From the NCBI GenBank assembly GCA_016342755.1, contig JAEINS010000005.1:124001-188000 (forward strand): DNA of 64,000 nt. The letters run 5' to 3'. The stretch is from Melioribacteraceae bacterium (GTDB taxonomy: Bacteria; Bacteroidota; Ignavibacteria; Ignavibacteriales; Melioribacteraceae). Below are positions 7,361-41,324 of the stretch, in pieces. How positions within the stretch are numbered: the first letter of the stretch is position 1; every line of letters starts with the position of its first letter. The notes below the pieces were generated by a model, which saw only the letters and a list, made by a program, of their open reading frames with translations, made no database searches and had not been told where the DNA came from. The position numbers and the translations under genes are program-made.

Positions 7361-8425
7361 TCATTTCAGCAAACGTTTTTCAACTCCAGTAAATGTTATT
7401 TTAACCGGCTTAATCAATCCGGTTTCATCAAAATACATTCTGTCAATACATATTACACGATGATTAATATTTGTTCTGTCAAGCGGTCTTCTATGGTAAA
7501 CTATATACCAGTCATCAGTATTTGGAATATTTATAAGTGAATGATGTCCGCTTCCGGTTGCAACTTTAGGATCCTGCTTTAATATCTTTTTAATCCTGGT
7601 AAAAGGACCAAGCGGAGAATCACTTATTGCATAAGCCACGCTATAATCGGGTCCTCCCCATCCTCCTTCGGACCACATCATATAATATTTATTTTTACGT
7701 TTAAAAACAAAAGGTCCTTCTACATAATTTCCCGGAGTAATTTCCTTGAACATTTTCCCGTCATCAAATGGTTTAAGACTCAGCAGATCTTCGCTAAGTT
7801 TTACAACATTGCAATGTCTCCATCCGCCATAATATAAATATATCTGATTATCATCATCACGAAAAACAAACTGATCAATCGGCTGGGCATCATTATAGAA
7901 TTTATTAATCAATGGTTTGCCAATGGCATCAATAAAAGGGCCTTCCGGTTTATCGGCAACAGCAACACCAATACCGCCAAACTCACCGTCACTTTGAATA
8001 TCGTTTGCGCCAAAGAAAAGATAATACTTATTTTTTGCTTTAATTATTGATGGAGCCCAAAGAGCAAATGAAGCCCACTTAACGTCTTTAATATCCAATA
8101 CGTGCGAATGTTTTTCCCAAGTTACTAAGTCATTAGATGAAAACGCATTAAAGAAAGTCTGCTTAAGGTATTCTTTATTAATTGTATTCTTTTGGGCATT
8201 CAACTGTTCTTCGCTAAATTCTGTTGATACATCAGGAATATCATAATGATCTGAGTAAGTTGGATAAATCCAGTATTCATCACCAAATATTATTGCCTCC
8301 GGATCCGCATACCAGCCTTTAACAACTGGATTTCCTGAAAAAGATTTGGGATCTTCATTAGTTTCGTTTGTACATGATACTAATGATATCAAAATAAAGA
8401 TCAAGAAAATGTTCACACTTCGCAT
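7361..8425 (-). CDS. GH43 family lipoprotein glycosidase
   Basis: A 354-aa lipoprotein: the signal peptide ends in a LVSC lipobox with Cys18. The five-bladed propeller fold of GH43 is recognisable from the expected catalytic trio: Asp41 in YADPE (base), Asp184 in PIDQFVFRDDD (pKa modulator) and Glu236 in VEGPFV (acid). Other family features are WAPS, YYMMWSEGGWGGPDYSVAYA, GSGHHS and WYIVYHRRP. GH43 enzymes include alpha-L-arabinofuranosidases, beta-xylosidases and exo-galactosidases. Which activity applies cannot be read from the sequence, but an enzyme removing side decorations fits the setting. An AAGGA ribosome site precedes the start. Upstream on the same strand is the GH127-like gene, 189 bp away. 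Confidence 0.88.
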   Translation of the reverse strand: MRSVNIFLIFILISLVSCTNETNEDPKSFSGNPVVKGWYADPEAIIFGDEYWIYPTYSDHYDIPDVSTEFSEEQLNAQKNTINKEYLKQTFFNAFSSNDLVTWEKHSHVLDIKDVKWASFALWAPSIIKAKNKYYLFFGANDIQSDGEFGGIGVAVADKPEGPFIDAIGKPLINKFYNDAQPIDQFVFRDDDNQIYLYYGGWRHCNVVKLSEDLLSLKPFDDGKMFKEITPGNYVEGPFVFKRKNKYYMMWSEGGWGGPDYSVAYAISDSPLGPFTRIKKILKQDPKVATGSGHHSLINIPNTDDWYIVYHRRPLDRTNINHRVICIDRMYFDETGLIKPVKITFTGVEKRLLK

Positions 8426-8614: not shown

Positions 8615-10750
8615 CTATTTGCTTTTTACAACAACCGGGAAAGCACTTATCCTTAATCTTGTAGTTCCCATCGGTACTAATTCAATTTGCTCAATTTTTG
8701 TATTAACATTAATTGGACTATCAACAAGTTCCCCGCATAAATAATTTTCATCAAGGCTCCAATCATTAAGTATAGCTCCCTTTGCATAAATTGAGATTGG
8801 ATTTGTTACATGAGTAAACGGGAAATTGTTTTGCGGCCAGTTATGTTTTACAATTTCAAAACTTTTCTCCATATCTGCTGCATTATAAAATAAACCGTAA
8901 TTCCAACGAGAATCCGGATGTATCTCAAACGACGGCCATTTTGTTACATCGGCTCCCTTTTGCCATTTAGAATCATAGATTGCGGTTTTGTCACTTTCCT
9001 TTTTTATGTACTTTTCCTTTATCTTAAGCGAGAAAGTTAGTGGTCCATAATTTACACTGACACTATTATGGTTTTTCTCCCAGGTTTTCACGGAAATAGA
9101 CATTGGCAATTCTAAGCTGATAATATCACCGTCATTCCAGGTTCTTTCAATACGAACGTATTTTGCCGCCAAAATATTTTCTTTAATTGATTTATTATTA
9201 ATTTTAACAATTGCATTATTGCACCACGACGGTACTCTTATATATAAAGGGAATTCTACACTGCTTTCTGTATTTACAGTAAATTTAATTTTATCATCAA
9301 ACGGATATTCTGTTTCTTCTTTAATATTAACTTCAACTCCGTCTCCAACTTTAACATTAACACTGCTTGCGCAATATACAGCCGCAAGAACTCCGTTATC
9401 CGGAGTTGCCATCCATAAATTTTCTGTAAAATAAGGCCATCCCTGTGCATGATTATGCTGACAGCATCTTGAACTAAAAGGATTCATCATTAAAAAAGGA
9501 CCTCTGTTTTGAACTCCCGGATGATGGTTCCTGCTATCACATAAAACCATATTTGGCGCGGTTAAATAATGTAAAGATTTAAAATCGGGCATAACTGCCG
9601 ATGGATACATATTAAACGCAACCTCCTCTAAATGATCAGCCCAAAACGGATCACCGCTTATCCTCAGCATCTGTTCATCAGAATTCATCTGTTCAACTAT
9701 ACCACATGTTTCTATACACTGTCGGGGATCATCGCATCCAGGTCTGGCATTTTCGTCTGCGCCAAACATTCCGCCAGGAACCTGACCAAAATGTTCGCGG
9801 ATTATACTAAAATTTTCATATGCAGCTTTTATGTGATCTTCATTTTTACTAAGTAAATAATATTGTGCAGGTTCCCTAAAACACTGTGCATGATTAACAT
9901 TGTGCCAGTCAATTTGATCTCCATACCAGTCGGGCCATTCTAATCCGGCTCTAACTTCCTTAAAATTTCTAACTGCCTCTAAACTATTTCCTCTGCTCAT
10001 CCAATCAGCAGTATTTCTATGAATTTTTTCTGCAAGTTCTAATAAAAATTTGTCGCCAGTCCGGTTATAAAGCCACATAACACTATGCAGATTATCGCCG
10101 CCGCGAATATTTTGCCAATAATGAGTTAAAAACTTTTCATCCGGAACTCTAATCTGATACTTAAAATATTTTGTCATCAGATCAATTATTCGTTCATCAC
10201 CGCTAAATTCATAATAAGACTGAAGACAGTACAACATTATCATGTTGCCCCAAAAATCGATAGAACCGTCTTCAAATCTTTGAATCGGGCCAAAACTTCC
10301 GTCAGTACGCTGGTTTTTTATAACGGCATTTATCCAGACTTCAGCTTCTTTAATTACTTTCTCATCGTTTAAAATATAGCCGATGTTTGCATATCCTTTT
10401 AACCAGTAGGGCACTTCTTCCCAGCCAAACTTCCCTTTTCCGTCTTTTGCCAGCCATGCATTATCTTCTTTTTGAAGCCACGCGCTTATTTCGCCTAAAT
10501 TGCCAGTCAGACCGTCACGTTGTTTTTCTAAATAGACTTTTAACCAGCCTTCCGGTTTTACAGAAGTTACAGGCAGTTTTATGAACATGCTTGATTTTAA
10601 TGGCTGCCGATTGCTGACATAGTTACTATTAGTTTTTGATGTATCCGGTCTATTTACAACCGATATATTTTCATCTAATCCGCATGAGATAAAAAAAACG
10701 AAAAAAAACGGCATTAGATAGATATGAATCCGCAATTTTATATTTCGCAT
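8615..10750 (-). CDS. GH127-like (DUF1680) lipoprotein, putative beta-L-arabinofuranosidase-type enzyme
   Basis: A 711-aa protein with a signal peptide ending FFISC, so probably a lipoprotein. The (alpha/alpha) barrel of the DUF1680/Glyco_hydro_127 superfamily is recognisable (VPYWLKGYANIGY, QRTDGSFGP, CFREPAQYYLL). The characterised enzyme HypBA1 uses a zinc site of one Glu and three Cys, with one Cys as nucleophile. The equivalent residues are present as Glu347 and Cys349 in IETCG, and Cys429-Cys430 in SRCCQHN. Retention of this whole site indicates an active cysteine glycosidase. The family is broad (GH127, GH137, GH142, GH146), and I cannot choose the exact family or substrate. It lies 152 bp downstream of GH125. 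Confidence 0.85.
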   Translation of the reverse strand: MRNIKLRIHIYLMPFFFVFFISCGLDENISVVNRPDTSKTNSNYVSNRQPLKSSMFIKLPVTSVKPEGWLKVYLEKQRDGLTGNLGEISAWLQKEDNAWLAKDGKGKFGWEEVPYWLKGYANIGYILNDEKVIKEAEVWINAVIKNQRTDGSFGPIQRFEDGSIDFWGNMIMLYCLQSYYEFSGDERIIDLMTKYFKYQIRVPDEKFLTHYWQNIRGGDNLHSVMWLYNRTGDKFLLELAEKIHRNTADWMSRGNSLEAVRNFKEVRAGLEWPDWYGDQIDWHNVNHAQCFREPAQYYLLSKNEDHIKAAYENFSIIREHFGQVPGGMFGADENARPGCDDPRQCIETCGIVEQMNSDEQMLRISGDPFWADHLEEVAFNMYPSAVMPDFKSLHYLTAPNMVLCDSRNHHPGVQNRGPFLMMNPFSSRCCQHNHAQGWPYFTENLWMATPDNGVLAAVYCASSVNVKVGDGVEVNIKEETEYPFDDKIKFTVNTESSVEFPLYIRVPSWCNNAIVKINNKSIKENILAAKYVRIERTWNDGDIISLELPMSISVKTWEKNHNSVSVNYGPLTFSLKIKEKYIKKESDKTAIYDSKWQKGADVTKWPSFEIHPDSRWNYGLFYNAADMEKSFEIVKHNWPQNNFPFTHVTNPISIYAKGAILNDWSLDENYLCGELVDSPINVNTKIEQIELVPMGTTRLRISAFPVVVKSK

Positions 10751-10902: not shown

Positions 10903-12336
10903 TCAGATATTTTTCAGCAGATGCTGTCTTTCTTTATACACTTTATATATTAGCTCACCAAACAGAGTATTTGCCCATGCAAACCACTTTCGTGTAAAAT
11001 TGTCCGGGTCATCTTTATGAAAGGATTCATGCATAAATCCGGTGCCGGCGTGTGTTTTCATAAGAGTCTTAATACACTGCTTAATTTCTTCATCATCTGT
11101 GCTTGTTAAAGCTCTCATTGTAATGCTCATTGGCCAAATCATATCCATTCCAACATGAGGTCCGCCTATACCTTCGGCAAACTCGCCTTTAAAGAAATAA
11201 GGATTAGATTTACTAAGTACAAACTTTCTTGTGTTCTTATATACTTTATCATCCGGCTCAACTGATTCCAAATAAGGCAGAGCTAATAAACTTGGTATAT
11301 TTGAATCATCCATAAATGAAATACTGCCATAACCGTCAACTTCAAACGCATAAATTTTTCCAAATTCAGGATGCTCATGTACTCCGTATTTTTCAACCGC
11401 ATTTTTAACTTCACCGGCAAGTGAAAGAAATTCATCCGCAAGTTTATTGTCTTTATATACTTTGCTTAAAATCTCTGCTGCCTGTTTAAGCGAAACTACC
11501 GCAAATAAATTAGAGGGAATTAGAAAAGGAAAAATTGCAGCATCATCCGAAGGGCGGAAAATTGAGCATATTAATCCAACCGGATTAACAGGATTTCCAT
11601 AACCGCTATTTGAAACTGTATCTGTCTGTACAGCAGTTTCTCTCTGAAAATGATAAGGTCCTTTCCCTTCTTTACGCTGTTGTTCAATAAAAGTTTTATA
11701 AATAAGTTTTACTGCTTCCAGCCAGTTTTTATCGAAGCATGAAGTCTCTCCTGTCTCTTTCCAAAAACCGTGCGCAAGTCTTACAGCATAACAAAGCGAA
11801 TCAATCTCCCATTTCCGCTCATGCAATTCAGGTTTCATGTCTGTAATATCGCTTTGCCAATGACCTCCGGTAGGTCCATCGTTAAACGCGTTTGCATAAG
11901 GATCAATTAGAATACACTGGGTCTGACGATTAATTACTCCTTCTACAAGCTTCTTTAATTCCTTATCCTTATTACATAATTGTATATAAGGCCAGACTTG
12001 CGCCGAAGAATCTCTAAGCCACATAGCGTGTATATCGCCGGTAATAACAAAAGTATCCGGTTTATTATTTTCAGTTTTATAATTTACTGTTGTATCAATA
12101 GTATTAGGGAAACAGTTTTCGAACATCCATGAAAGTTCGTTGTTGCCAACATTATTTTTTATTTCAGTTATAACATCTTCAACAGCACTGCTGACAAATT
12201 TTCTATCATTTAACGGAGGTCTGTTTGTTACAAAACCATTTACATTAGTAGTCTTCGCAAAATTAATATTAGATCCGAATGTAAGTCCGGTTGCTAATAT
12301 TCCTGATGTCTTAATAAAATCTCTTCTGGAAACCAT
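10903..12336 (-). CDS. GH125 exo-alpha-1,6-mannosidase, Tat-type signal
   Basis: A 477-aa protein beginning [10 protein letters not shown], a twin-arginine signal, so it is probably exported folded to the periplasm. The family is clear from [77 protein letters not shown] and [16 protein letters not shown]125 enzymes are inverting exo-alpha-1,6-mannosidases that act on mannan backbone oligosaccharides. Asp264/265 (FRPSDDA) and Glu437 (MHESFHKDD) match the family's acid and base regions. A strong AAAGGAG site stands 5 nt before the ATG. In alpha-mannan loci it complements the endo-acting GH76, which is present here at 40185-41297. It lies 65 bp after the CotH gene. Confidence 0.93.
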
Positions 12337-12401: not shown

Positions 12402-15086
12402 CTATTTAAGCAGAATCATTTTTTTCGTTTCAGTCAGCTCATCGGTTTGCAATTGATAATAATAAATTCCGTTTGTCATATTACCGGCATCAAATCTTAC
12501 CTTGTGATTCCCGGATCCTAAATGACCGTTAATAATTGTTTTCACTTTTCTTCCTAAAACATCATATATGTTTAGTTGTACCACCGATTTACGAACCGGG
12601 ATGGAAAACTCTATTACTGTAGACGGATTAAAAGGATTTGGATAGTTTTGCTTTAATGAGAATGTACTAACCTCAGCACTTAAATTTGATTTGTCATTAC
12701 TTACAACTGTACCCGGCATATTATCGTCCATCCATTCTAACCGGTTCTTAACCCAGTATTTTAAATATTCAATTTCCTGTTCGTACGTTATATCCCATAT
12801 TGCGTTCGGCCATACATATTCATCAAGTATAGGCCACCGCAAAAAATTTCTAGTAATAGCTGATTCACCAATTTCAGTTCTAAGACTGTCAATAATGAAC
12901 TCTACTGATTCATCGCTAAGAGTGCTTTCTCTTAAAGATGCCCATCTTGTTTTGAGCCGGTTTTTATAAAAGTCGTCCTGCAGCATTTTAGACCACCAGA
13001 ACGGTATAGAACCATATTCTTTTCCGCCATGCCAGTTATACTGCCATCCCTCGGGATATTGTGCATCGTCATAATCCGCATTTCCATACGAAATATTAAA
13101 ATCCCAAACCGGACCAATGTTTAAGAGTCCGCCTTTACTTTCTTTATTTTTAAAAAGGAAAGTACTAAGTCTATAACCATCAACACTTTTACTTAACTCA
13201 ATTAAAATCATGTGATCAATAAAAGAATCAACATCAATGTACTTTCTATATCCTATTTCAGGATCATTAAAACTAGATTTAAGCAGTGAACTCTCAAACT
13301 GATAAATATAGTTTTGAATATATTCTTTCTGAACTTCAATAATATTTTCCGGCTTTGGATAATGATACTGTATGAATAGTATATTATCGTGGCTTGATAT
13401 AGTTGGGAAACTAGACCACCAGCCATCATTAGAACTTCCGGTTAATTTATCAAGCTTTATAATGTAACCGCCAGTTACATCATCACCTTCAATATCTTCT
13501 TCTTCCAATTTTGAAACATTAACTCTGTTTTTATCCCTTTTAATTTTTTCCATTAATACATAAACTCCCTGATACTCTCCATTTAATACCAGTTCACAAA
13601 ACTTTGTCCGTGAAGCATATCTATTAAGTTTTCTTGAGACTGTATATTCAAGAACATTTCTTATTAAGGTTTTATCGCTATACGGAGCATGTAATATCCA
13701 GTCTTCCTCTTTTGGCAATCCTAATAATGAAGCCGTAGAATCTTCACCGCCAGAGGATCTTATTTCAATTGCATATTGTTTTTTTGGGAAACTCTGAGAT
13801 GTAGAACCTCTAAATTCAATACCTATCTTTCCATCATAATCATTAAAACTATCTTTAACATAATTAACTTTCCCGGCTCCATTATCAATTATTCCCATTC
13901 TAACATTTATCTTCTCTTCATCTTTAATCCGGGCGCCTTCTGTATCAATAATAATCAAAGGAAGTTTCGATTCGCTGAATAATAAATAGGTGCTTCCCGG
14001 AGTAGTATTGGCTGCACCCGGAGTAGGATCCGTATAAACCATTGTCATTTTCGGATCGTTGATATATTTTCCAACGGATTTATTTAATGCGATTTCAGAG
14101 TAGGATATTTCGTCAACTGTTTCACCAGAAGGATCGGACAGATATAACACATCCTTTTCATTGCTTAATTGGAAATCGGCATGTATACCCGAAGGCATAT
14201 TAGGTATGTATTCTGATAAACTTAAATTCAAATCGGGGTTATTCTTGTATGCAATATTTAATATTGGAATAACAGTTAAATCCGAGGAAGTTGTTCCGGC
14301 GTTATGAACTTGTAAACTTATTAAATTTTCACCTTCCTTAAGATATGCGGAAAAATTTTTCAGTGAAAATGTTTCCGGCTTTATACCTCTATATAACTTT
14401 GCTTCATGGTCACTATTATCAGCAACCTCATTAAAATTAGGGATTACACCTGCCGTTCCAATATTATCCCTTGCAACTTCAATACCATTTATATATGCAA
14501 CAAATGCGTCATCGTAATCAACGTTTAATATTATCTGTATTATATTTTCCAAATTATTAACATTGAAAGTCTTTCTTATAAAAACCGAATTGGCATTACC
14601 AATATAGGTCGCGTCATCATTATCACCATAACCGAAGCCGCTGTTTCCAGTTGCCCACAACAAATCGTCGAACCCGGGATTATTCCAGCCAGCCGCCGGT
14701 TCTTTATTACCAATAAAATATTTCCAATCGTCTCCTTTATCAATTAGTGTTTTCCATTTGAACGGGATTAAACGATTTTCTTTCCCGGAAAGAAATAGGA
14801 GTAAATATTCATCCGTTTTCACCGGCATTCCGGGAAATTTCCACTTAAAGGGATCAGATTTATCGTTAGATAAACCATAATCCCTTAAGTTTTTTGATGA
14901 ACCTGAATTATTGAAAATTTCAACCCAAGCTGTATAATCGTTATCTTCATCAACAATACCCAAAGTGTTACCCGGCAGCAATTCGTTAATCTGAAAATCC
15001 TGCGAGTATAAACTTATAGGAATAAGAAAAATATAAACAACAATTTTTAACGCGTCCAATCTTCTCAAAAATTCATCTATCATCAT
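12402..15086 (-). CDS. CotH-kinase family protein with lamin-tail and T9SS sorting domains
   Basis: An 894-aa secreted protein. After a signal peptide come a lamin-tail-like domain (FQINELLPGNTLG..., about 25-105), a beta-sandwich region (DDWKYFIGN, GWNNPGFDDLLWATG), and a CotH kinase-like domain (about 390-760). The CotH part shows IEFRGSTSQSFPKKQYAIEI, WILHAPYSDKTLIRN, ELVLNGEYQGVYVLMEKI, YIIKLDK and the metal-binding type motif VWDFN with Asp662. The C-terminus is a T9SS sorting domain (NYPNPFNPSTVIEF ... KKMILLK). CotH proteins are atypical secreted kinases in spore coats and elsewhere; in this group the substrate is unknown. The start codon overlaps the ROK stop by 4 nt (ATGA), with no good ribosome site of its own, so it is probably translationally coupled. 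Confidence 0.88.
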   Translation of the reverse strand: MMIDEFLRRLDALKIVVYIFLIPISLYSQDFQINELLPGNTLGIVDEDNDYTAWVEIFNNSGSSKNLRDYGLSNDKSDPFKWKFPGMPVKTDEYLLLFLSGKENRLIPFKWKTLIDKGDDWKYFIGNKEPAAGWNNPGFDDLLWATGNSGFGYGDNDDATYIGNANSVFIRKTFNVNNLENIIQIILNVDYDDAFVAYINGIEVARDNIGTAGVIPNFNEVADNSDHEAKLYRGIKPETFSLKNFSAYLKEGENLISLQVHNAGTTSSDLTVIPILNIAYKNNPDLNLSLSEYIPNMPSGIHADFQLSNEKDVLYLSDPSGETVDEISYSEIALNKSVGKYINDPKMTMVYTDPTPGAANTTPGSTYLLFSESKLPLIIIDTEGARIKDEEKINVRMGIIDNGAGKVNYVKDSFNDYDGKIGIEFRGSTSQSFPKKQYAIEIRSSGGEDSTASLLGLPKEEDWILHAPYSDKTLIRNVLEYTVSRKLNRYASRTKFCELVLNGEYQGVYVLMEKIKRDKNRVNVSKLEEEDIEGDDVTGGYIIKLDKLTGSSNDGWWSSFPTISSHDNILFIQYHYPKPENIIEVQKEYIQNYIYQFESSLLKSSFNDPEIGYRKYIDVDSFIDHMILIELSKSVDGYRLSTFLFKNKESKGGLLNIGPVWDFNISYGNADYDDAQYPEGWQYNWHGGKEYGSIPFWWSKMLQDDFYKNRLKTRWASLRESTLSDESVEFIIDSLRTEIGESAITRNFLRWPILDEYVWPNAIWDITYEQEIEYLKYWVKNRLEWMDDNMPGTVVSNDKSNLSAEVSTFSLKQNYPNPFNPSTVIEFSIPVRKSVVQLNIYDVLGRKVKTIINGHLGSGNHKVRFDAGNMTNGIYYYQLQTDELTETKKMILLK

Positions 15087-16186
15087 TTATCTAGGGAATT
15101 TAAGGCAAATGCATAAGCACCCAGTGAAATAGCAGAACTGGTACCAATTTTAGAAATTCCAATTCCAACTCTCATTTCAGAATCATATTGAATTGTCTTT
15201 TCAGTTCCGGGTATTTTAATTTTTTTGTTCGAACCTTTTACAAATTGCTGCATGTCATCCTCATCTTCCAGATTGTAAACCTTAGCAACTAACCTTGGAA
15301 ACTCAGTGCCATCGGGATTAATAAAATTACTGTTCATCTCCTTAACAACCGCAGGCAGAAAAATTTCGGCAGCACCGGATAATCCGCCGCCTATAACCGC
15401 AATCCCGTCAATTAATGTAATAGCGTTTGAAATGGCATCTCCAACAGCTTCGCCCATTTCTTCAAAAGCTTTTTTTGCGGCATTTATATTACCTCCTTTT
15501 TTTCCAAGAGCAATCTCATAAATATCTTTTGGTTCAGGAACCACGTCAGCACTTATCCCGGATTCACGAATATAAATTTTCTTAATACCTCTTATGCTGG
15601 CATGTTCTTCTATATTTGTGGCGGGACACAATTTATCTCTTGAAAGCCAAATTTCACCGGCAATAGAATTATCACCTAATAATAAATTACCATCGCGTAC
15701 AATACCTGCTCCAAAGCCCGTTCCTAAAGTTAATCCCAATAAATTTTTAAACCTTTTGGGGCTGCCTGATTTTTCCAGTTTTTCATTTAGATCTGGCAAA
15801 TAACCTGAAAGTGCTTCTCCATAAGCGTATAAATCACCGTCGTTATTAATATAAACCGGAATGCCAAATTTTTCGGCCAGCATTGGACCAAGAGCAATAC
15901 CGCCTCTAAATGCAGGAAGGTTTTGCAGATCACCAATAATTCCATTCGGATAATCGGCCGGACCCGGAAACGCAAAACTTATTGCTACAGGATTTTCGTT
16001 AAGACGCAACTTAACCTGTTCAAATCCATAAATTATTGAATACAAACATTTATCCAAATCATCTGCATTCGACGGCATAACAATATTTTCAATTACATTT
16101 TTATTTCCTTTAATTGCGGAAAATACAAAATTTGTACCTCCTGCATCAAGTGTCATTACAGTTCGTTTATCTTCATTATATTTCAT
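15083..16186 (-). CDS. ROK-family sugar kinase
   Basis: A 367-aa cytoplasmic protein. The phosphate-binding motif LDAGGTNFVFSAI opens it, followed by NNDGDLYAYGEAL (substrate side, catalytic Asp), GLTLGTGFGAGIV and AGEIWLSRDKLCP. ROK kinases phosphorylate glucose, fructose, mannose or N-acetyl-sugars. In this operon mannose or fructose is the likeliest substrate (inference). The usual ROK zinc motif CxCGxxGCxE is absent: the equivalent stretch reads DKLCPATNIEEHAS, leaving a single Cys. Length is longer than typical (about 300). The gene begins directly after the permease stop codon (TAAATG) with a GAGG site inside the permease end, and overlaps the CotH start by 4 nt, so the three genes are tightly coupled. 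Confidence 0.85.
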   Translation of the reverse strand: MKYNEDKRTVMTLDAGGTNFVFSAIKGNKNVIENIVMPSNADDLDKCLYSIIYGFEQVKLRLNENPVAISFAFPGPADYPNGIIGDLQNLPAFRGGIALGPMLAEKFGIPVYINNDGDLYAYGEALSGYLPDLNEKLEKSGSPKRFKNLLGLTLGTGFGAGIVRDGNLLLGDNSIAGEIWLSRDKLCPATNIEEHASIRGIKKIYIRESGISADVVPEPKDIYEIALGKKGGNINAAKKAFEEMGEAVGDAISNAITLIDGIAVIGGGLSGAAEIFLPAVVKEMNSNFINPDGTEFPRLVAKVYNLEDEDDMQQFVKGSNKKIKIPGTEKTIQYDSEMRVGIGISKIGTSSAISLGAYAFALNSLDK

Positions 16187-17398
16187 TTATACCTCTTTTA
16201 ACATTTCATTTTCACTTGAAGTCTTTTTTAGTAGAATAACAGAAACAGCTAATATATATAACAAACATAACAATGGCACGGCAAATCCGGTTAAAATATT
16301 TGTTAAATCGGATACCTGCCCCATTACCAAAGGTATAATTGCTCCGCCGGCAATGGCTGTTACCATAAGACCCGATAATTCATTAGATCTTTCCGGCATT
16401 TCGTCTATCGCAATAGAAAATATTAATGGAAAAATATTTGCTAATCCTAAGCCGACAAAAATAATTCCGATGTATGTAATAACCTGATTTCCAGTGAACA
16501 TAAGCAGAACGCCAATTATGGCAAGTATTACAGTCTGAATTAAAAAACTTTTTGGTAAAATCTTCTCTAATATTAACGATCCTAAAAATCTTCCTAATAA
16601 TATTGGCAAGAAAAACAATGCCCATGATACCCATAAACTAAAGCCTTCAACTCCAAAATTTTCTTTAACAAGAATTGGCACACCCGAACTCATTGAAACT
16701 TCGGCACCCACATATATAAATATTGCCGCCACCATCATTAGTACATAACCATTTTTTAAAAGTGAAAAACAAGAACTGATTGATGCAGGCTTTGAATCGG
16801 GATCTTTATATTCTGAGATTTTTAGCGGTGAAACCATAAACAAGGTGATTACAATTAAACTGGCAAATATTGGGAATAAAATACTCCATTCCAGTCCAAA
16901 ATAAATTGCTAAAAGCGGAGGAACTAAAAAGCCCAGCGATGAACCGACTGCTTTAATTGATTGTGCAAAGGATAAATTCTTGGAGAATTTACCTTCCGGT
17001 GAAACATCCCTCATAATCGGGTTCCCGACAACCTGCAGAATAGTTGCCCCGGCGCATAAAACAAATATTGAAATTAAAACCACATAAAAATTAAAATACT
17101 CTCCCTGGTTAAACTCAATAGGAGAACCGTACATCCCGTTTAATATTGGAATAAGAAGACCTATAAGCGCCACAGCAAGACCCAAAATAAGAACTTGCTT
17201 CTTACCCTTTTTATCCTGGTATATTCCCATTGGAACTGAAAGTAACCCAAACATAATAAAGCCTGAAAAAGGAATTAATTGTGCCATTGTATAGGATAAC
17301 TGAAATGTATCTTTTACAAGTCCGACAAGCGGTCCAACTACATCACCAAAACCCATGCATAAAAATACTAGAAATATAGGGAAGGCTTTCTTATTCAT
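16187..17398 (-). CDS. MFS sugar permease, FHS (FucP-like) type
   Basis: A 403-aa polytopic membrane protein with about 12 hydrophobic segments. I place the start at ATG 17398 (MNKKAFPIFLVFL) because GGAG stands 6 nt upstream; a TTG four codons earlier has no such site. The N-terminal part (CMGFGDVVGPLVGLVKDTF, QLIPFSGFIMFGLLSVPMGIYQDKKGKK) resembles the fucose/glucose-galactose:proton symporter branch of the MFS. In the locus it would import the monosaccharide released in the periplasm, most likely mannose (inference). It is followed without a gap by the ROK kinase gene, the classical uptake-plus-phosphorylation pair. Upstream lies the frameshifted sugar porter, so this may be the only working MFS importer of the operon. 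Confidence 0.85.
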   Translation of the reverse strand: MNKKAFPIFLVFLCMGFGDVVGPLVGLVKDTFQLSYTMAQLIPFSGFIMFGLLSVPMGIYQDKKGKKQVLILGLAVALIGLLIPILNGMYGSPIEFNQGEYFNFYVVLISIFVLCAGATILQVVGNPIMRDVSPEGKFSKNLSFAQSIKAVGSSLGFLVPPLLAIYFGLEWSILFPIFASLIVITLFMVSPLKISEYKDPDSKPASISSCFSLLKNGYVLMMVAAIFIYVGAEVSMSSGVPILVKENFGVEGFSLWVSWALFFLPILLGRFLGSLILEKILPKSFLIQTVILAIIGVLLMFTGNQVITYIGIIFVGLGLANIFPLIFSIAIDEMPERSNELSGLMVTAIAGGAIIPLVMGQVSDLTNILTGFAVPLLCLLYILAVSVILLKKTSSENEMLKEV

Positions 17399-17557: not shown

Positions 17558-18891
17558 TTAATTTTTTCTGTTTACAACAACAATCTTTTCCAATTCTTCC
17601 AGCGATTTACCTTTTGTTTCGGGCATTACTTTCCAGACAAAAATGTAAAATGGAATCATCATTACGGCAAAGAAAATAAAAATGTGACCGCCCCCGAATA
17701 TTGTAAGAGCTATGGGAAATACAAGACCAATTACGGCATTCATAATCCAGTGAGTAAATGATCCTAAAGATTGACCTTTAGCTCTAATCTTATTAGGGAA
17801 AATTTCCGCAAGAAAAACCCAGATCACCGCTCCCTGTGAGAAGGCAAAAAACGCGATAAAGCTGATTATAAAAATAGAACACCGGTGTCTCCAAAAAGAT
17901 TTTCGTTATAATAGTGTAATCCGGCACCCGATAAAGAAACAAACATTCCAACTGCACCAATCAGTAATAATGTTTTCCGCCCGACTTTATCAATAAAAAA
18001 CATAGCCGCTATTGTAAAGATCATATTTGTTATTCCAACTGCAACAGCCTGAAACATTGCTGTAGAAGTAGTAGCGCCTGTCTCTTCAAAAATCATTGGC
18101 GCATAATAAAGGATTGCGTTTATACCTGATAATTGATTAAATACGGCAAGTAGTACAGCACACATTATTACAAATTTATATTTGCCCTGAAACAATTTTT
18201 CTGATGATCTTCCAACTTCTTCTTTTAGTGATTCAACAATTTGTGACAATTCATTTTCAACATTAACAGACCCAATTTGCTTTAGCACTGAATGGGCATT
18301 TTCAATTAGTCCCCTTTTAACAAGCCAGCGCGGGCTTTCCGGAACAAACATCATTAAAATAAAAAATAGTACCGCCGGAATTGCTTCAACACCAAACATC
18401 CACCGCCAGCTATCTATGCTAATATCCACTAGATAATAATTTGAAAAAAAAGCGATCAGAATTCCAAACACAATATTAAACTGAGCAACGGCAACAAGCC
18501 GGCCTCTTAAAGCACCTGGTGAGATTTCGGCAATATACATAGGTGCCATAACAGATGAAGCACCAATAGCTAATCCTCCAATAAATCTTGAAAACAAAAG
18601 CATATACCATTCACTTGCCATTGCGCAGCCAAGTGCCGATATAAAATATAAAGCTCCACAGGTTATCAGTATTATTTTTCTGCCGTAAATATCACCCAAT
18701 TTGCTAATACTTATCGAACCAACTACGGTTCCCCATAGGGCAATTGAAACTGTTATACCAAGTGACGTATCACTTAAATTAAAATAGGAAGAAATAAACT
18801 TTGTTGTACCTGATATTACTGCTGTATCAAATCCAAAGAGAAAGCTTCCTAAGGCTGATATAATAGTTGCAAAAAATATTTTTTTATTCAA
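17558..18891 (-). pseudogene. MFS sugar porter (xylose/glucose-proton symporter type) with a single-base frameshift
   Basis: Two fragments make one sugar porter. The first part reads MNKKIFFATIISALGSFLFG, then FDTAVISG, GRKIILI, PESPRWLVKRG and NQLSGINAILYYAP, and stops after GVLFL. The second, in another frame, continues FIAFFAFSQGAVIWVFLAEI and then FPNKIRAKG, GSFTHW and PETKGKSLEELE. Adding one T to the T5 run at 17870-17874 (minus strand) restores the frame through GVLFFIISFIAFF and gives about 444 residues, the normal size. I prefer the TTG start at 18891: GGAG lies 6 nt upstream, it matches the usual N-terminus, and it avoids overlap with the upstream gene. An ATG at 18939 is the alternative. 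This could be a real inactivation, slippage-dependent expression or a homopolymer error in the assembly. Confidence 0.85.
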
Positions 18892-18911
18892 GGAAGACTC
18901 CGAAAACTCTT

Positions 18912-23010: not shown

Positions 23011-23031
23011 AATTATAAATCCCCGGTATTA

Positions 23032-27782: not shown

Positions 27783-28790
27783 TTAAAAATTTAATTTCAC
27801 TGATATTTGTTGAGTATAGTCTAAGTATTCCACTTTTGTATAAGAATAATCAATACCCACAAAATCATATTTAATACCGGCACCAAATGTTAATCCGCTC
27901 ATATCTGTATCTATCAAGATAGATTTATAACCAGATCTTAGGGCAAAACAGTCGAATACAGTTAATTCGCAGCCTACATTTATGCTAGAGAAGTTATCAT
28001 TAGGATGAATGTAATCAGCCGTGATAAGTAATTTATTATTCTCAATTTCTAAAGCCCTGTAAGCAAGACCGAATCTAAAGCTAAGTGGCAGCGACCATTC
28101 TTTTGTATATAAATTGGTCATAATCTGAGTATTGTTACCAGTAATTGTTTCATCGATATCTGTAAATACAATTGCGTCAACACCCTGCATCTGTAATTTT
28201 TGTCCGAAATTAAGAATAGACATTCCTAAGGTTATTTTATCCCAAGGAAGTGTATACATAATACCGAAATCCATTGCTACAGAAGTCGCGTTCATGTGCC
28301 AGATTCTTCGGTTTATATATTTAAGAGTCATACCGAATGAAAAACGGTCAGTGAGCTTTTTAGAATAACTCAGACCTAGTGCTAAATCCGCAGCGTCGAA
28401 ACGGGTACCAAGCCCTTCAGGTTCCTCAACAGTTCTAACAACCATTTCAGGAGTTGAAAAAGAAGTTACCGAAAGTCCAAAACTTCCTAATTCACCACTA
28501 TGTATTACGGCACCAAAATTAACGAACTTCATTCCGGCAAACCAATCAACATAATTGAACGCCGCATCATTTAATGTATATCTATCTAAGCCGGCAGGGT
28601 TCCAGTACATAGCAGAAGCATCGTTAGCAACTGCAGTATAGGCTTCACCTAAACCTGCTGCTCTAGAGCCGACACCAATTTGTAAAAACGGCGCGGCCGA
28701 GGTTCCAACTTTTGAAACCTCCTGAGACCAGGTTGTAAGCTGGCATAGTAGTAATATTATTGTTATAGGTAATATTCGCTTAAGTTTCAT
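27783..28790 (-). CDS. PorV/PorQ-family outer membrane protein
   Basis: A 335-aa predicted beta-barrel. The start at ATG 28790 is chosen because GGAG stands 5 nt upstream and it begins the signal peptide (MKLKRILPITIILLLC...); an ATG 4 codons earlier lacks this. Family features are GTSAAPFLQIGVGSRAAGLGEA, YTAVANDASAMYWNPAG, LGLSYSKKLTDRFSFGMTLKYI and the C-terminal alternation ending KLNF. PorV is the outer-membrane shuttle of the type IX system; PorQ- and PorV-like paralogues are common next to TonB receptors in Ignavibacteria. Here it closes a three-gene set with the receptor and the large surface protein, so it may help deliver that protein to the surface (inference). Confidence 0.85.
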   Translation of the reverse strand: MKLKRILPITIILLLCQLTTWSQEVSKVGTSAAPFLQIGVGSRAAGLGEAYTAVANDASAMYWNPAGLDRYTLNDAAFNYVDWFAGMKFVNFGAVIHSGELGSFGLSVTSFSTPEMVVRTVEEPEGLGTRFDAADLALGLSYSKKLTDRFSFGMTLKYINRRIWHMNATSVAMDFGIMYTLPWDKITLGMSILNFGQKLQMQGVDAIVFTDIDETITGNNTQIMTNLYTKEWSLPLSFRFGLAYRALEIENNKLLITADYIHPNDNFSSINVGCELTVFDCFALRSGYKSILIDTDMSGLTFGAGIKYDFVGIDYSYTKVEYLDYTQQISVKLNF

Positions 28791-28804
28791 TTGTTCTCCC
28801 ATGA

Positions 28805-31800
28805 TTAATTAATTATTGCGAACGTACCGGTTTTTTGACCAATACCAGGAGCGTCGATATGAAAGACATAAATTCCAAATGATACTTCTAAACCTTCATC
28901 TGTTGTAATGTCCCAAAATTCACTTCCGTCCGAGTTAGAACCACCATGTTCTATTGTTTTAATTAATATTCCGTTTTGTGTAAAGATTCTAATTTTACAC
29001 TTGGAGGGTAAATGAATGAATGATATTTTTCTTTCACCCCTACCGGAAAGATCTGATCCTCTTTCCCAACTAGCAGTTAACATATAAGGATTAGGAACAA
29101 CAGCTACTTTATTCAATGATTCTTTTTCCACTCCTTTTGTACCGCTTGCAGTGGTTGTAAACTCAAATGAATCATTTGCGGTAAATGGATTATCACAGAT
29201 AAATGTAAATCTATCACCATCTTCTGGTTCAACAGCATCTACGTTTGGATCAGCAGGAGCCAGGAAACCTATATTCCATGCTTTAACTATTCTGTTATCC
29301 AATGTATAATGCAGTACAGTTACTATATCACCAGGATTTATTTTCCCATCTTTATTTAGATCTCTGCTAAACTGGAAGTCCAGTGTATCAAGAGTATTTC
29401 TATCATATACTTTGAAGTATACCGGATCAGTTTTCTTGAATGGCTTATGACTTGGTACATCAGTTACTTCTATAATAAAGTCCTTAGAAATAAGTCCTGA
29501 TCCACCTTGTGAAACATTGGTTCTAAGGTTAGTTTTACTATTATCAGTCCAGCCCGATAAAGCATTTATCTTTATTGGATCCGGCGCTGTATTCTGAAAT
29601 CTAAGCTGCATTCCGTCAAATACAGGAGAAATCCATGAAAGTGTTTTTGTTGTTATAGTGTCTGTAGGTATCGAAACTTCATCCAATAAAACCATAGCTG
29701 TACTAATATTTTTTACGGTATAGGACATTGTATGTATTTCACCTACATTATTAAGCTCATCTATAAACGTAACTTCATAATTATTATTATCTACAAGTTC
29801 TTCCGGATTAATAACCTGTACTTTTACCGAACCTGTAGTTGGCGAGCCATCTAATTTTGTAATTCTACCCTGTTCATCAGCATCAGTATATCCGCTATTA
29901 TAATCAGTTGCCAATGTATTTGGTATAACTATAACCGCGTTTCTGCTTATTGCCGATAAAGCACCATACTGATAAGTAATTTCGAACGGAGATTCAGCAG
30001 GAGACATATTAACAAGGTTTCTATCATCCATACCAGGATAATATCCCTGATCGTACGCGACAACAACATAGTAATAGGTCATTCCGTTTATTACATCATC
30101 ATCTTCATAATAATAATTTAAACCAGTATCGTCTCCCATATCATAATGTATACCGGACGAATACTCATTTCCTATTTCCTGACCTAATGCCACAGGATGT
30201 AAATTTCTAATCCCGTTTATTAAATCGAACTGAGCAATTGATTTATAGTAAGCAAAACTTCCGTACGAGTTTGTAATTACCTGTGCATCAGTTAACTGAG
30301 GATCGGTACCTTTATAGATTTTATATCCTTCAAAATCCTTTCCATATACAGGATCTAAAGATCTTTCAGCAAAGTTATCCCAGTAAATAGTTACTTTCTC
30401 ATCACCGGCAACAGCTTTAACAGTAGGTGTTAACGGAGGTTTAGTAAATCTGTAATCGTTATCATAAATCTGCTGCGATGTATACGCGTTTCTAAATATT
30501 TGTCTTTCATCATCACCAAATAACCAGCACACAGAAAATCTTTCTGTCTGATTTTGTGAAAGATTAAACGGTCCGGAAGCAAATATCCAGAGTCTGTTTC
30601 CATCGTTTTCCGGCTTTTCAAAATTGCCAGGTTGAATATACTGCCAAATCGACTGATCGTTACTTGAAGTTAAAGCACCATAAAGAGGAGCATAAAAAGA
30701 AGTTAAACCAATCTGATCAGATTCGTCGTTATCAGTTTTACCAAAGTTAGGTTCACCCTGATCAGGCATTCCGTTTCCTTCAGTACCATCAAAATCTGGA
30801 CCTACATAATTAAGATCTAACGGGCCAATTCCATCGGTACCAACATCATCTCTTAATGCATCCCAATCACCATCTTCATCACCACTCCAGTGATCTTTAT
30901 TTTCACCATAATTACCAATATCACCGGATTCAATCCATATACCGGCATCATTATCTCTTCTCTCATCAATTAAACCGTCTTCATCATTATCAAATCCGTC
31001 TAACTGTCCCGGACTCTCTAAATATTTCCAAGCCATATAGCCAGGTAATATTTCGCGTGAACTTGCCCATTGACCTTTATTATCTTTTGCCCAGGCAAAA
31101 ACCATGTTATCGCCGTTTGAATAATCATTTAAGTCATTAGAACTTCCAAGTCCGCCGGGATGAGTATCGGCAAAGGCACCTAAGTAAATATTTTTGTTAT
31201 AATCATTATTTGATATGTTGGTTACCTGGAAATGAATAAATATTTGATCTTGCGCTAAAGGATGCGCCCATTGGAATAATCTGGTTTCAACCTGCATTCC
31301 TAATCCTCTTTTAGTACTGTCAGAGGCAATAGGATAATAAGGGAATTCAGAATTTTCAAAATCATCAATTACATAAACTGCTTCTTTATCGGCAGTAAAT
31401 TGATTCTGTCCAAAATATCCGTTCCATGTACCATCCCACGAAGCGTCTTTACCCGGCCAGTTTGAAGGCCATGTACTTTCATCGGTACTTGCAGCAACTT
31501 TTGCGGTTGTATCAACCATTCCCGATGCATTAACAAATCTTCTATCATCATTTGCGTAACCTGGTAAAGGATTCCACCAAAATTCTTTCCCGTCGGGAGA
31601 ACGGTCAGATCCTTCTGAATATGAATCTGATGCTATCTGGTATAAATCACCATCTTTACCAACAACTTCCGCAGAAACAAGCATTGTCATTTCATGAATA
31701 TGACCGTGACCTGTACCCTTTGGCCAAACACCAGAATACGGATCATCTCGTTTACCAAACATTCCCCAGTTTCCAAAAATAGATTCAGCTCTATTTGCAT

Positions 31801-31942
31801 TCATTATCTGTTCTTTACGGTATTTTTTTTCACCTTTATTAGGATCAATATAAATACTGCCATTCTGAGCATAAATTTTCCCAAACAAACCTAAGACCAT
31901 AATTGTCATTAAGTGGAGAATAAACCATTTTTTAATTACCAT
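28805..31942 (-). CDS. Large secreted surface protein with FN3-like and Ca-binding segments, T9SS-like C-terminus
   Basis: A 1045-aa exported protein lying between the TonB receptor and the PorV-like gene. After the signal peptide comes a conserved-looking N-terminal region (ANRAESIFGNWGMFGKRDDP, GHGHIHEMTMLVSAEVVG). Asp-rich segments follow (GFDNDEDGLIDERRDND at about 313-329, SGDEDGDWDALRDD), a fibronectin-III-like region (EKVTIYWDN ... YYYVVVAYDQG, about 520-650) and a dockerin-like loop (DLNKDGKINPGD, about 860-872). The C-terminal 100 residues (VVPNPYMLTASWERG ... GIYVFHIDAPG ... TGTFAIIN) resemble a variant sorting domain. No catalytic motif is recognised. From its position it may be the surface partner of the TonB receptor in place of SusD (inference). 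GAGGA precedes the ATG. Confidence 0.72.
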   Translation of the reverse strand: MVIKKWFILHLMTIMVLGLFGKIYAQNGSIYIDPNKGEKKYRKEQIMNANRAESIFGNWGMFGKRDDPYSGVWPKGTGHGHIHEMTMLVSAEVVGKDGDLYQIASDSYSEGSDRSPDGKEFWWNPLPGYANDDRRFVNASGMVDTTAKVAASTDESTWPSNWPGKDASWDGTWNGYFGQNQFTADKEAVYVIDDFENSEFPYYPIASDSTKRGLGMQVETRLFQWAHPLAQDQIFIHFQVTNISNNDYNKNIYLGAFADTHPGGLGSSNDLNDYSNGDNMVFAWAKDNKGQWASSREILPGYMAWKYLESPGQLDGFDNDEDGLIDERRDNDAGIWIESGDIGNYGENKDHWSGDEDGDWDALRDDVGTDGIGPLDLNYVGPDFDGTEGNGMPDQGEPNFGKTDNDESDQIGLTSFYAPLYGALTSSNDQSIWQYIQPGNFEKPENDGNRLWIFASGPFNLSQNQTERFSVCWLFGDDERQIFRNAYTSQQIYDNDYRFTKPPLTPTVKAVAGDEKVTIYWDNFAERSLDPVYGKDFEGYKIYKGTDPQLTDAQVITNSYGSFAYYKSIAQFDLINGIRNLHPVALGQEIGNEYSSGIHYDMGDDTGLNYYYEDDDVINGMTYYYVVVAYDQGYYPGMDDRNLVNMSPAESPFEITYQYGALSAISRNAVIVIPNTLATDYNSGYTDADEQGRITKLDGSPTTGSVKVQVINPEELVDNNNYEVTFIDELNNVGEIHTMSYTVKNISTAMVLLDEVSIPTDTITTKTLSWISPVFDGMQLRFQNTAPDPIKINALSGWTDNSKTNLRTNVSQGGSGLISKDFIIEVTDVPSHKPFKKTDPVYFKVYDRNTLDTLDFQFSRDLNKDGKINPGDIVTVLHYTLDNRIVKAWNIGFLAPADPNVDAVEPEDGDRFTFICDNPFTANDSFEFTTTASGTKGVEKESLNKVAVVPNPYMLTASWERGSDLSGRGERKISFIHLPSKCKIRIFTQNGILIKTIEHGGSNSDGSEFWDITTDEGLEVSFGIYVFHIDAPGIGQKTGTFAIIN

Positions 31943-31978
31943 ACTATTATCCTCAATTTCTTATCTTATTAGCTTCTA

Positions 31979-34645
31979 TTAAAAGTTTACCGATAATCCA
32001 ACTTTTACAAGTCGTGGTCTCGGTTGAGAAGCAGGATTATATCTATAATCGTATAGAGTATTTATATATTCTTTAGATTCGTGACCTTCTATATCATCTT
32101 GCTTCAATTCAGGAAAATTTTCACTTAAAGTTTCATCTAATAAATTCTCGACCTGCATAAAGAAAGTTGTAGAAAGTCCGGCAATTTCTAAGTTTTTATA
32201 TAGTCTCACATCAACATTAACTCTTGGCTTTCTTCTGCCCATATTTCTCAATTGAACATTTGAGGTTTGAATATATGTGGTTGAAGGTGAAAACGGATAG
32301 CCGGATTGATATCTTGAGATTGTACTAATACCCCAGTCTTTACCATTTAGATTTAATACCCAGTTAAATACATGTCTCTGATCCCAATTTAATGGCACAA
32401 GAGTTTTAGTTGATTCATCATTGTTACCCGCATCATAAAATGCCTGTTTAGGATCCGAACCGTTACCTTCGGCAACCTGATAAGTATAATCAACCGTTGA
32501 GGATACAATACCGGCACGTAACAGATCAAGAGCTAAAGTAAATCCCCAAACACTACCGTAATCATAATTAGTATATTTACCGTATGAAACCTGATCGAAT
32601 GTTTCATAAAGTTTTGTACCGGCCAAATTTCTAACATCTTTATAATAACATGTAGCATCAAGAACTATATTTGGAGTTAACATCTGCTGTAAACCAATTT
32701 CATAAATAGTGGTTCTTTCCGCTTCTAAATCAGCATTTCCTATAAAAGATTCGAATGTACCAATAACTTCAAAATCCGGATTTTCATAAAGTCTGCCTAA
32801 TTCTGGAATTTGAAAAAACTGTCCAAAAGAAGCGTGAAGTGTTCCTTCGTCAGAAATTGGAAATGCCATTCCTAATCTTGGACTTAACTGCATCTTAGCA
32901 TCTACGTCTTCATAAGCATCATCAAAAGATTTTGGTTCAGAAGAACCTGTTGAAATATTTGACGGATTGGTAAAATCTTTTGGAACATAACTTTTTGCAT
33001 TAAAGTAATCGAAACGCAGACCTACGTTAACTATAAGATCTTCTATCTCAATCTTATCTTGTATATACGCCGAAATTTCAATTGGCTTCTTTTTGTAATA
33101 ATTATGAGCCATTGAAGAAACATCATCAACCTGAAGTTGCCAGTTTGTACCTTCATCTCTTCTAACAACAAAATATTCATCTTCCAATTTATTCTGTCTG
33201 TATTCAACACCCATCTTAACAAGATGTGATCTGTGAATCTGACTTGTTAAATCATATTTTATGGCTAAAGTATTACTATATCTTTCCGAGAATCCGGTTG
33301 AAACCAAACCGATAGCAAATATATCGGAAGGTGTATTTGCCTGGTTGTGTATTTCTTTTTCATATCTTGGATCAAAAGGATCTTTATATTTTGAACTTTC
33401 AAAATTGTATGTATAATTTGCAATCCGTAACTCGTGCACTGTACTTGGACTTAAGGTATGTGTAAAAGATAAAATGTTGTTTATACCCCAAGATTTGCTT
33501 GTACCGTCATGATCAGGATTATACTTCTGGGAATGATTATAACCTCTCCATTTAGAATAGTCTGAGATTAAATTGTAAGATACTTTCAAATTGTTAAACA
33601 ATCTGAAAGAAAGCTTTCCCTGTAAAGCTCTTGACTGTGAAGGATTCATCTCAACAATGCTGCTGTCGCCGCCGTATTGAATTGTCCAATTCTCAGGATT
33701 TGTGCTGCTAAAATCGGCTGAATCACTAGGCGAATGATTTCTTTGTCCGTATAACCAATTTTCAACATCTGTAATACGTGTAGAAAGGAAAAAGTTTGCA
33801 TTCTTAACAAACGGAATTGGACCACTTACAAATCCTTCAAAATATTTTTGCGAAAGAGGATTAATGTCATCAATATTAAAAAACATATCATCGTGTGTAG
33901 TTAGGAAATCCCCTGTGTAACCAGATATTGAACCTCTGAATTTTTCAGTTCCCTCTTTAGTTACAATGTTGACAATTCCTGACATTGCGCGACCATATTC
34001 CGCATTAAAGGTTCCACTAATAACTTCCATTTGCTGAATTGTATTGTTCTGAACTGATACCGCCATTCCGCCGCCAAATGGGTTAGAAACCGAAATTCCA
34101 TCAACCATATATTCAATCTCTGCTGAACGGCCGCCTCTTAGATGTAATCCGCCTCCGGCATCCTGAGTAATACCTGTTTGCAGTGAAAGGATATCTCCAA
34201 TACTTTCAACCGGCATTTTTTGAATTTCATCAGCACTAATCTGTTCTGATGAAGCAGTTAAATCTTTAATAATTCCCTTTTTGCTGGCAATTATTTCAAT
34301 TACTTCAGTTTGCAAGTCGCCAATTGTTAATTCAAAATCAATACTAGTTGTTCTGTCTACATTAACCACAACTTGTTTTTTAACAACTGACTGATAACCT
34401 ATAAATGAAGCTTTAACATCGTAAACGCCCGGAGGGATATTAATTATATAATAAGTTCCTTCAATATCGGCAGAACCTCCAAGATTAGTACCCATAATCA
34501 TAATATTTGCACCAATCAATAATTCGCCAGTTTCGGCATCTACAATTTTACCTGAAATTTTCCCCGTTGTTCCGCACCATAATCTTGAAGGAAAAATTAA
34601 GGTTACAAGAACTAACAATGTTAGTAATAATTTTACTTTTCGCAT
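31979..34645 (-). CDS. TonB-dependent receptor with carboxypeptidase-regulatory-like domain
   Basis: An 888-aa outer membrane receptor. After the signal peptide, residues about 27-115 are a CarboxypepD_reg-like domain (GKISGKIVDAETGELLIGAN, GTYYIINIPPGVYDV). A plug domain follows (about 125-240; SIGDILSLQTGITQDAGGGLHLRGGR, EVISGTFNAEYGRAMSGIVNIVTKEG). The rest is a 22-strand type barrel ending in the outer-membrane signature ...GLSVNF with terminal Phe. It would import mannooligosaccharides using TonB energy (inference from context). Unlike Bacteroides SusC it has no SusD next to it. It is the first gene of the 34-kb minus-strand run and its upstream region (34646-35023) carries the divergent promoter. 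Confidence 0.92.
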   Translation of the reverse strand: MRKVKLLLTLLVLVTLIFPSRLWCGTTGKISGKIVDAETGELLIGANIMIMGTNLGGSADIEGTYYIINIPPGVYDVKASFIGYQSVVKKQVVVNVDRTTSIDFELTIGDLQTEVIEIIASKKGIIKDLTASSEQISADEIQKMPVESIGDILSLQTGITQDAGGGLHLRGGRSAEIEYMVDGISVSNPFGGGMAVSVQNNTIQQMEVISGTFNAEYGRAMSGIVNIVTKEGTEKFRGSISGYTGDFLTTHDDMFFNIDDINPLSQKYFEGFVSGPIPFVKNANFFLSTRITDVENWLYGQRNHSPSDSADFSSTNPENWTIQYGGDSSIVEMNPSQSRALQGKLSFRLFNNLKVSYNLISDYSKWRGYNHSQKYNPDHDGTSKSWGINNILSFTHTLSPSTVHELRIANYTYNFESSKYKDPFDPRYEKEIHNQANTPSDIFAIGLVSTGFSERYSNTLAIKYDLTSQIHRSHLVKMGVEYRQNKLEDEYFVVRRDEGTNWQLQVDDVSSMAHNYYKKKPIEISAYIQDKIEIEDLIVNVGLRFDYFNAKSYVPKDFTNPSNISTGSSEPKSFDDAYEDVDAKMQLSPRLGMAFPISDEGTLHASFGQFFQIPELGRLYENPDFEVIGTFESFIGNADLEAERTTIYEIGLQQMLTPNIVLDATCYYKDVRNLAGTKLYETFDQVSYGKYTNYDYGSVWGFTLALDLLRAGIVSSTVDYTYQVAEGNGSDPKQAFYDAGNNDESTKTLVPLNWDQRHVFNWVLNLNGKDWGISTISRYQSGYPFSPSTTYIQTSNVQLRNMGRRKPRVNVDVRLYKNLEIAGLSTTFFMQVENLLDETLSENFPELKQDDIEGHESKEYINTLYDYRYNPASQPRPRLVKVGLSVNF

Positions 34646-41297: not shown

Positions 41298-41324
41298 CTT
41301 TATCAATACCTTAAATATTTAATA

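Follow-up and report, generated by a model that had tools for sequence, protein, structure and literature searches.

CotH of Bacillus subtilis is a kinase that is inactive as the D228Q or the D251A variant, and the known substrates of CotH are coat proteins (PMC7821199). CotH residues match D166, N171 and D184 of protein kinase A (PKA), with adenine stacked between Tyr142 and Trp245 (PMC12189002). CotH domains are also listed, together with lamin-tail modules, among the cellulosomal proteins of Clostridium thermocellum (PMC6083626), where a 2025 review describes their role as unclear, structural or regulatory (PMC12484212). CotH is named among structural modules in a further study (PMC3413522), and its function was left open in a stalk-formation gene cluster (PMC8250860). 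In the Pel loci of streptococci and clostridia, CotH genes occur with genes for VTC polyphosphate polymerase and DUF4956 (PMC7112168); in Clostridium perfringens the VTC and CotH genes are tabulated with one gene between them (PMC2879425), and mutants of the CotH-like SIR_1594 and its neighbour SIR_1592 in Streptococcus intermedius aggregate less (PMC12345266). Here we describe a CotH protein encoded in a 64,000-nucleotide stretch of the genome of a Melioribacteraceae bacterium (contig JAEINS010000005.1), referred to below as the window. The open reading frame (ORF) at 12402-15086 on the minus strand encodes a protein of 894 amino acids (aa), which is close to certain to be a CotH-fold protein bearing a sorting tail of the type IX secretion system (T9SS). 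A literature search covering mostly the top-ranked matches, which may miss a mention, found no paper on a T9SS CotH protein.

Fold and active site of the window CotH protein

The Pfam CotH profile (PF08757) matches residues 423-786 with 206.5 bits against a cut-off of 23.8, and the sorting tail at residues 815-891 is recognized by Por_Secre_tail (PF18962; 37.5 bits, cut-off 27) and by TIGR04183 (40.3 bits, cut-off 23). SprA, the component of the secretion machinery that was searched for, is represented in the genome by a frame scoring 1036.2 bits with TIGR04189 (cut-off 200). An AlphaFold model built from 55 sequences has a mean pLDDT of 80.3 and a pTM of 0.56; most of the CotH domain reaches a pLDDT of 85 or more, whereas the lamin-tail part scores low. 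Alignment of model residues 374-793 to Bacillus cereus CotH (PDB ID: 5jd9) with VIA-align gives a Z score of 31.6 over 337 residues at 2.9 Å, and Foldseek matches the model to 5jda with an E value of 1.3e-13. The next structural matches are the kinases CtkA (Z 11.9) and HipA (Z 11.3).

The region ahead of the CotH domain is composite. Residues 107-282 resemble the N-terminal jelly rolls of GH2 glycoside hydrolases (VIA-align Z ~12 over ~140 residues); the likeness is confined to this module, and Pfam finds no GH2 catalytic domain in the protein. The adjoining segments resemble two halves of a lamin-tail domain (LTD), for which the Pfam score of 33.6 bits lies slightly under the cut-off of 34.3. 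In other CotH proteins of this genome these halves are nearly contiguous (best in L070_13, at 28.7 and 21.8 bits, and more weakly in L071_9 and L073_8), and many relatives carry the jelly roll without them. Because the halves are contiguous elsewhere and the jelly roll occurs alone, the lamin-tail domain appears to be split by a GH2-like jelly roll nested within it. In most relatives the CotH domain lies close to the N-terminus, leaving no room for the complete lamin-tail and jelly-roll region.

In a profile alignment Lys436, Asp471, Arg476, Glu513, Asp636, Trp661 and Asp662 fall on the corresponding residues of B. cereus CotH, the equivalence of Asp636 to B. subtilis D228 resting on an equal 23-residue spacing in the B. 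cereus chain. We assembled a subfamily of 116 domains that score above 400 bits with a custom hidden Markov model (HMM), taken from the best matches to the window protein. Asp471, Arg476, Glu513, Asp636, Trp661 and Asp662 are identical in all of these domains and Lys436 in 113. An original prediction, made from the DNA sequence, had proposed a secreted atypical kinase with an ATP and metal site around Asp662; this is supported in part, by the CotH fold of the model, the T9SS tail, the glycan-degradation setting and the retained Asp636, Trp661 and Asp662. The site departs from that of B. cereus CotH five residues past the catalytic Asp, where an Asn is replaced by Ser641. Outside the subfamily, 14 of 27 CotH domains have Asn in this column, rising to 26 when Asn in a neighboring insert is counted, with L264_8 the exception. 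A motif reading of 29 further places from the phylum, a few of them already included above, gave Ser in the two subfamily members and Asn in the 27 others.

The subfamily forms one clade in a FastTree tree, with modest support (0.694), and its members span Bacteroidota, Ignavibacteria, Calditrichota, Marinimicrobia and other groups. The window protein is sister to L157 (support 0.997), its nearest full-length relative, which comes from a Calditrichaeota metagenome-assembled genome (MAG) and is 48% identical over 888 aa. Two members, L182 and L174, come from MAGs labelled Desulfonema limicola and Caldisericaceae, outside the usual groups; these contigs may be misbinned.

The second, larger CotH/T9SS ORF reported at 60212-64000 is also confirmed and extends past the window edge, giving an open frame of 1595 aa. 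Gly, Asn, Thr, Ser and Pro stand at its positions equivalent to Arg426, Asp471, Arg476, Asp636 and Trp661, while the equivalents of Lys436, Glu513 and Asp662 are retained in the profile alignment; the protein is highly divergent, and the alignment near Asp471 and Arg476 may shift by a few positions. Loss of Asp636 and Trp661 was also seen in a separate alignment, and the protein is probably a pseudokinase. Loss of the ATP-binding residues, on which the kinase assignment had been staked, is seen in the second CotH protein, with several residues gone, and not in the first, where most are kept. This paralogue, encoded in the same window, provides a contrast to the near-complete site of the first.

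The window protein has in common with the CotH of B. subtilis and B. cereus (5jd9 and 5jda) the fold, the catalytic Asp, the metal Asp and the adenine-stacking Trp. It differs from B. cereus CotH in sequence (17-18% identity in the structural alignment), in having a T9SS tail in place of a spore-coat setting, in Ser at the Asn171-type position, and in its extra lamin-tail and GH2-type modules. The cellulosomal protein Cthe_0239 (LTD-LTD-Fn3-CotH; PMC6083626) likewise combines CotH with lamin-tail modules among polysaccharide-degrading enzymes; by contrast, the window protein carries the T9SS tail and has no dockerin in a Pfam scan at E 0.01. CotH of the Pel loci (PMC7112168, PMC12345266) is likewise secreted and encoded in a polysaccharide locus, and the source genome has a CotH-VTC-DUF4956 arrangement elsewhere; however, the contig of the window gene has no VTC gene. 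We regard the window protein as the T9SS counterpart of the lamin-tail, cellulosomal CotH proteins; what is new in it is the Ser641 signature.

Genomic neighborhoods of CotH, ROK and VTC genes

The T9SS tail is recurrent in these proteins: among proteins scoring above 150 bits for CotH, a custom HMM found it in 40 of 44 from the class (3 of them from the source genome) and in 56 of 84 at the named loci. The neighbors of the subfamily were drawn from 97 distinct loci, each 9 kb or longer; 15 of these had no operon-like neighbor, and 224 neighbors were counted. Of 215 eligible neighbors, 110 were sampled, and these included 11 with a T9SS tail, 7 GH5, 5 CBM6, 4 GH3 and 4 GH16; for comparison, 2 of 109 genes picked at random from 20 regions in related genomes had a T9SS tail. 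GH3, GH5 and GH16 were not among the 25 commonest of 173 families in the random genes, where single matches may hide lower down. In a count with custom HMMs, GH16, GH3 or GH5 was found in 32 of 220 neighbors (in 17 of the 97 loci) against 1 of 287 random genes, and the T9SS tail in 28 of 220 against 13 of 287; the p-values for these counts are overstated, since a single CotH locus supplied the hydrolase queries, the random set was open to genes outside operons, and related loci are not independent.

The hydrolases concerned vary from locus to locus. At L081 a run of genes encodes a Pfam-less protein (cut by the end of the stretch), a PorV-like protein, GH16, GH3, GH5-CBM6, CotH and a sodium symporter, a layout that resembles that of the window with different hydrolases, and at L163 genes for a GFO/IDH/MocA oxidoreductase and a 3-keto-disaccharide hydrolase lie behind CotH. 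The type of glycan implied by the neighbors is thus varied, which disfavors a kinase for one particular glycan. At two places (L086:2-1525 and L110:5418-6974), a second CotH gene of another type lies a few kb from a subfamily member.

In the window, the CotH gene follows genes for a ROK-family sugar kinase and a permease of the major facilitator superfamily (MFS), and the original prediction treated the three as a coupled module. Among 245 genomes of the class, 44 contain relatives of the CotH protein (E 1e-60) and 24 relatives of the ROK protein (E 1e-70), the source genome being included in both counts. Five genomes contain both, and in the four others the two genes are separated by more than 700 kb or are on separate contigs. 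We inspected 20 ROK neighborhoods from 25 listed places, two being from the source genome and some shortened by contig ends: CotH was present in none of the 20, whereas ROK had an MFS gene as its immediate same-strand neighbor in 15, and in 2 more the ORF caller gave no ROK. Among the CotH loci examined, ROK was seen only in a paralogous locus of the same genome (contig C18), where a ROK gene with 70% identity lies ~8 kb from a CotH gene with 56% identity over the domain. This CotH gene is transcribed divergently from the MFS-ROK pair, with a GH85 gene 19 nt after it (L069:8790-14079); GH92 genes lie near, which suggests a high-mannose N-glycan locus. From these neighborhood counts, ROK and MFS form a stable pair to which CotH is a local addition. 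They would not be mechanistic partners of CotH. A conserved ROK-MFS-CotH module is rejected, and the claim of coupling is to be dropped.

Genes for VTC polyphosphate polymerases occur in 48 of the 245 genomes. CotH was found in 16 of 40 VTC neighborhoods (from 52 listed places, one of the source genome), but in none of 20 random neighborhoods (Fisher p 0.0005) and in none of the 20 ROK neighborhoods; the 16 loci come from 11 genera and are not all independent. In the source genome, contig C19 carries CotH, a gene of 352 aa, VTC, DUF4956 and, further on, another CotH. VTC, DUF4956 and CotH stand together at L070:5211-16551 and L188:3843-10620, the latter a VTC-DUF4956-CotH-CotH run. No VTC gene lies near the window CotH gene; the two VTC matches of the genome are on contigs C24 and C19, and the window is on C34. 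Linkage within the subfamily is uncommon: VTC or DUF4956 was found by HMM only at L070 (with a different CotH type of the source genome), L162 and L188, and by coordinates the members in G032 and G012 have VTC ~6 and ~10 kb away, missed by the HMM search or by the stretch fetched. A subfamily-wide VTC linkage was accordingly rejected, as members seldom adjoin VTC.

Possible roles of the window CotH protein

Our preferred reading, which we hold tentatively, is a surface protein kinase, or a phospho-binding scaffold, for co-secreted proteins. Once exported, the protein would lie at the cell surface or within the matrix, kept close to glycan by its jelly-roll and lamin-tail modules; its CotH domain would phosphorylate co-secreted proteins, or bind them in a nucleotide-dependent manner, as proposed for cellulosomal CotH. 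Because glycan specificity differs among the neighbors while T9SS export is constant, proteins are likelier substrates than sugars. By its position behind ROK and MFS, CotH probably shares the regulation of a mannan or high-mannose glycan locus. Kinase activity outside the cell is plausible enough to merit an assay, and the Ser641 change adds to its interest. A number of observations weigh against this reading. ATP is scarce outside cells. In PKA, Asn171 helps to hold the metal; the corresponding residue is Ser in all 116 subfamily domains, an exchange that may alter or abolish catalysis. Tyr142 of B. cereus CotH aligns to or beside Ile543, with Tyr541 nearby, and has no clear equivalent. Over neighborhoods of 15-19 kb, glycoside hydrolases were present at 14 of 33 loci of the class (p 0.067) and at 12 of 41 named loci (p 0.34), the random regions having them in 3 of 20; the corresponding counts for T9SS cargo are 22 of 33 (p 0.16) and 11 of 41 (p 0.24), with 9 of 20 at random. 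The excess is thus weak for hydrolases and absent for T9SS cargo, and a broad enrichment of either was rejected as not significant; the difference is found at operon-level neighbors only.

One alternative is a non-catalytic surface protein, in which the kinase fold would serve as a binding or structural module of an adhesin or matrix scaffold and the Asn-to-Ser exchange would mark lost phosphotransfer. The fixed Ser641, against Asn in nearly all other CotH domains compared, is consistent with this, as is the second window CotH, which has lost much of its site and keeps its sorting tail and lamin-tail domain; a structural role is also one option named in the cellulosome review (PMC12484212). 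Against it, the other catalytic residues are invariant (Lys436 nearly so) across 116 domains from several bacterial groups, which would be unexpected after loss of activity, and we consider the non-catalytic role unlikely, albeit a serious alternative. Phosphorylation of glycan, either mannan or released oligosaccharides, before uptake is improbable. The setting in a glycan locus stands, with GH125, GH127 and GH43 genes downstream and GH92 and GH76 genes ~25 kb away; a paralogue lies 19 nt from a GH85 gene, and the jelly roll resembles GH2 N-terminal domains. The mannan-specific role once envisaged is nevertheless weakened by relatives beside GH16, GH3 and GH5 or beside GFO/IDH/MocA and 3-keto-disaccharide hydrolase genes, with no single glycan shared, and the known CotH substrates are coat proteins (PMC7821199). 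The ATGA overlap and the second ROK-CotH pair on C18 speak for a functional tie to the ROK kinase and MFS permease. Such a tie is very improbable, given the absence of CotH from the 20 ROK neighborhoods, of ROK from every CotH locus examined in other genomes, the lack of linkage in four genomes with both genes, and the divergent transcription of the second pair.

The exported subfamily might also be an extracellular phosphotransferase of altered chemistry, the fixed Ser adapting it to a donor present outside cells, for example polyphosphate produced and exported by VTC-DUF4956, a system whose genes cluster with CotH in the class and in this genome. Its targets would be co-secreted enzymes or matrix at the cell surface. 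We give this idea very little weight, and polyphosphate as the donor is speculation, members of the subfamily being rarely beside VTC. Secreted CotH proteins recur around polysaccharide-degrading enzymes. The present subfamily occurs in a range of bacterial groups and has a single fixed Asn-to-Ser change in a kinase site that is otherwise complete, which makes it a tractable case for asking if kinases act outside the cell in sugar degraders and what donates the phosphate.

Gene boundaries and surrounding genes

The ORF, its T9SS tail and the 4-nt overlap with the ROK gene are as originally described. The TGA stop of ROK lies within ATGATG, such that the first CotH ATG overlaps it by 4 nt (ATGA) and the second by 1 nt. 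By inspection, no clear Shine-Dalgarno sequence is present at this junction; were translation to begin at the TTG of residue 10 instead, 23 nt would separate CotH from ROK, and the precise CotH start codon is not certain. The ROK gene does abut the permease gene, the TAA stop of MFS being directly followed by the ROK ATG (TAAATG). The likely MFS start is the ATG at 17398, behind GGAG, rather than the TTG at 17410. Promoter-like matches between 4800 and 18200 number 64, equal to the shuffle mean of 63.0, and a promoter and terminator scan gave no informative signal; the proposal that the secreted kinase is made in fixed ratio with sugar uptake is unsupported. The source genome (4.73 Mb, 56 contigs) has 9 CotH matches, and 151 matches to the window CotH protein, mostly to its T9SS tail.

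Table 1. Coordinates of the window CotH protein's domains and key codons, and of the genes around it.
Feature	Position	Strand	Basis
Probable export signal (residues 1-28; hydrophobic, with LYSQ at its end)	15003..15086	-	judged by eye
Lamin-tail first half, ~residues 30-106	14769..14999	-	Pfam LTD 45-126 just below cut-off; low model confidence
Inserted jelly-roll module, ~residues 107-282, GH2 N-terminal fold	14241..14768	-	VIA-align
Lamin-tail second half, ~residues 283-364	13995..14240	-	comparison with other CotH proteins
CotH kinase-fold domain, residues 373-793	12708..13970	-	structural match to 5jd9
Asp636 codon, catalytic Asp (B. subtilis CotH D228)	13179..13181	-	profile alignment
Ser641 codon, at PKA Asn171 position	13164..13166	-	profile alignment
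Trp661-Asp662 codons, adenine-stacking Trp245 (B. cereus) and metal Asp (B. subtilis D251)	13101..13106	-	profile alignment
T9SS type A sorting tail, residues 815-891	12414..12644	-	Pfam, NCBIfam
ROK-family sugar kinase gene	15083..16186	-	Pfam and NCBIfam profiles
MFS sugar permease gene, GluP/FucP-like, under curated cut-offs	16187..17398	-	Pfam and NCBIfam, start codon inspection
GH125 alpha-mannosidase gene, separated by 65 nt from the CotH gene upstream of it	10903..12336	-	Pfam
GH127 gene	8615..10750	-	Pfam
GH43 gene	7361..8425	-	Pfam
Upstream trio: PorV-like (27783-28802), 1045-aa Pfam-less protein (28805-31942), TonB-dependent receptor (31979-34645)	27783..34645	-
Second CotH/LTD/T9SS protein, cut by window edge, pseudokinase-like active site	60212..64000	-	Pfam, profile alignment

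The GH76 and GH92 genes of the window lie at 40185-44309. A sugar transporter gene at ~17560-18939 is frameshifted near 17868, with the ORF covering positions 2-335 of the 452 in the Pfam model and the remainder in another frame; it is either a pseudogene or the result of a sequencing error. Two neighboring genes for GxGYxYP putative glycoside hydrolases occupy 20746-24717, one of them with a T9SS tail match. The TonB-dependent receptor, 1045-aa protein and PorV-like protein of the upstream trio are possibly a SusCD-like uptake system of the class, and parts of this trio occur near CotH in other genomes. The 1045-aa protein has 26 matching stretches in its own genome, including several full-size relatives.

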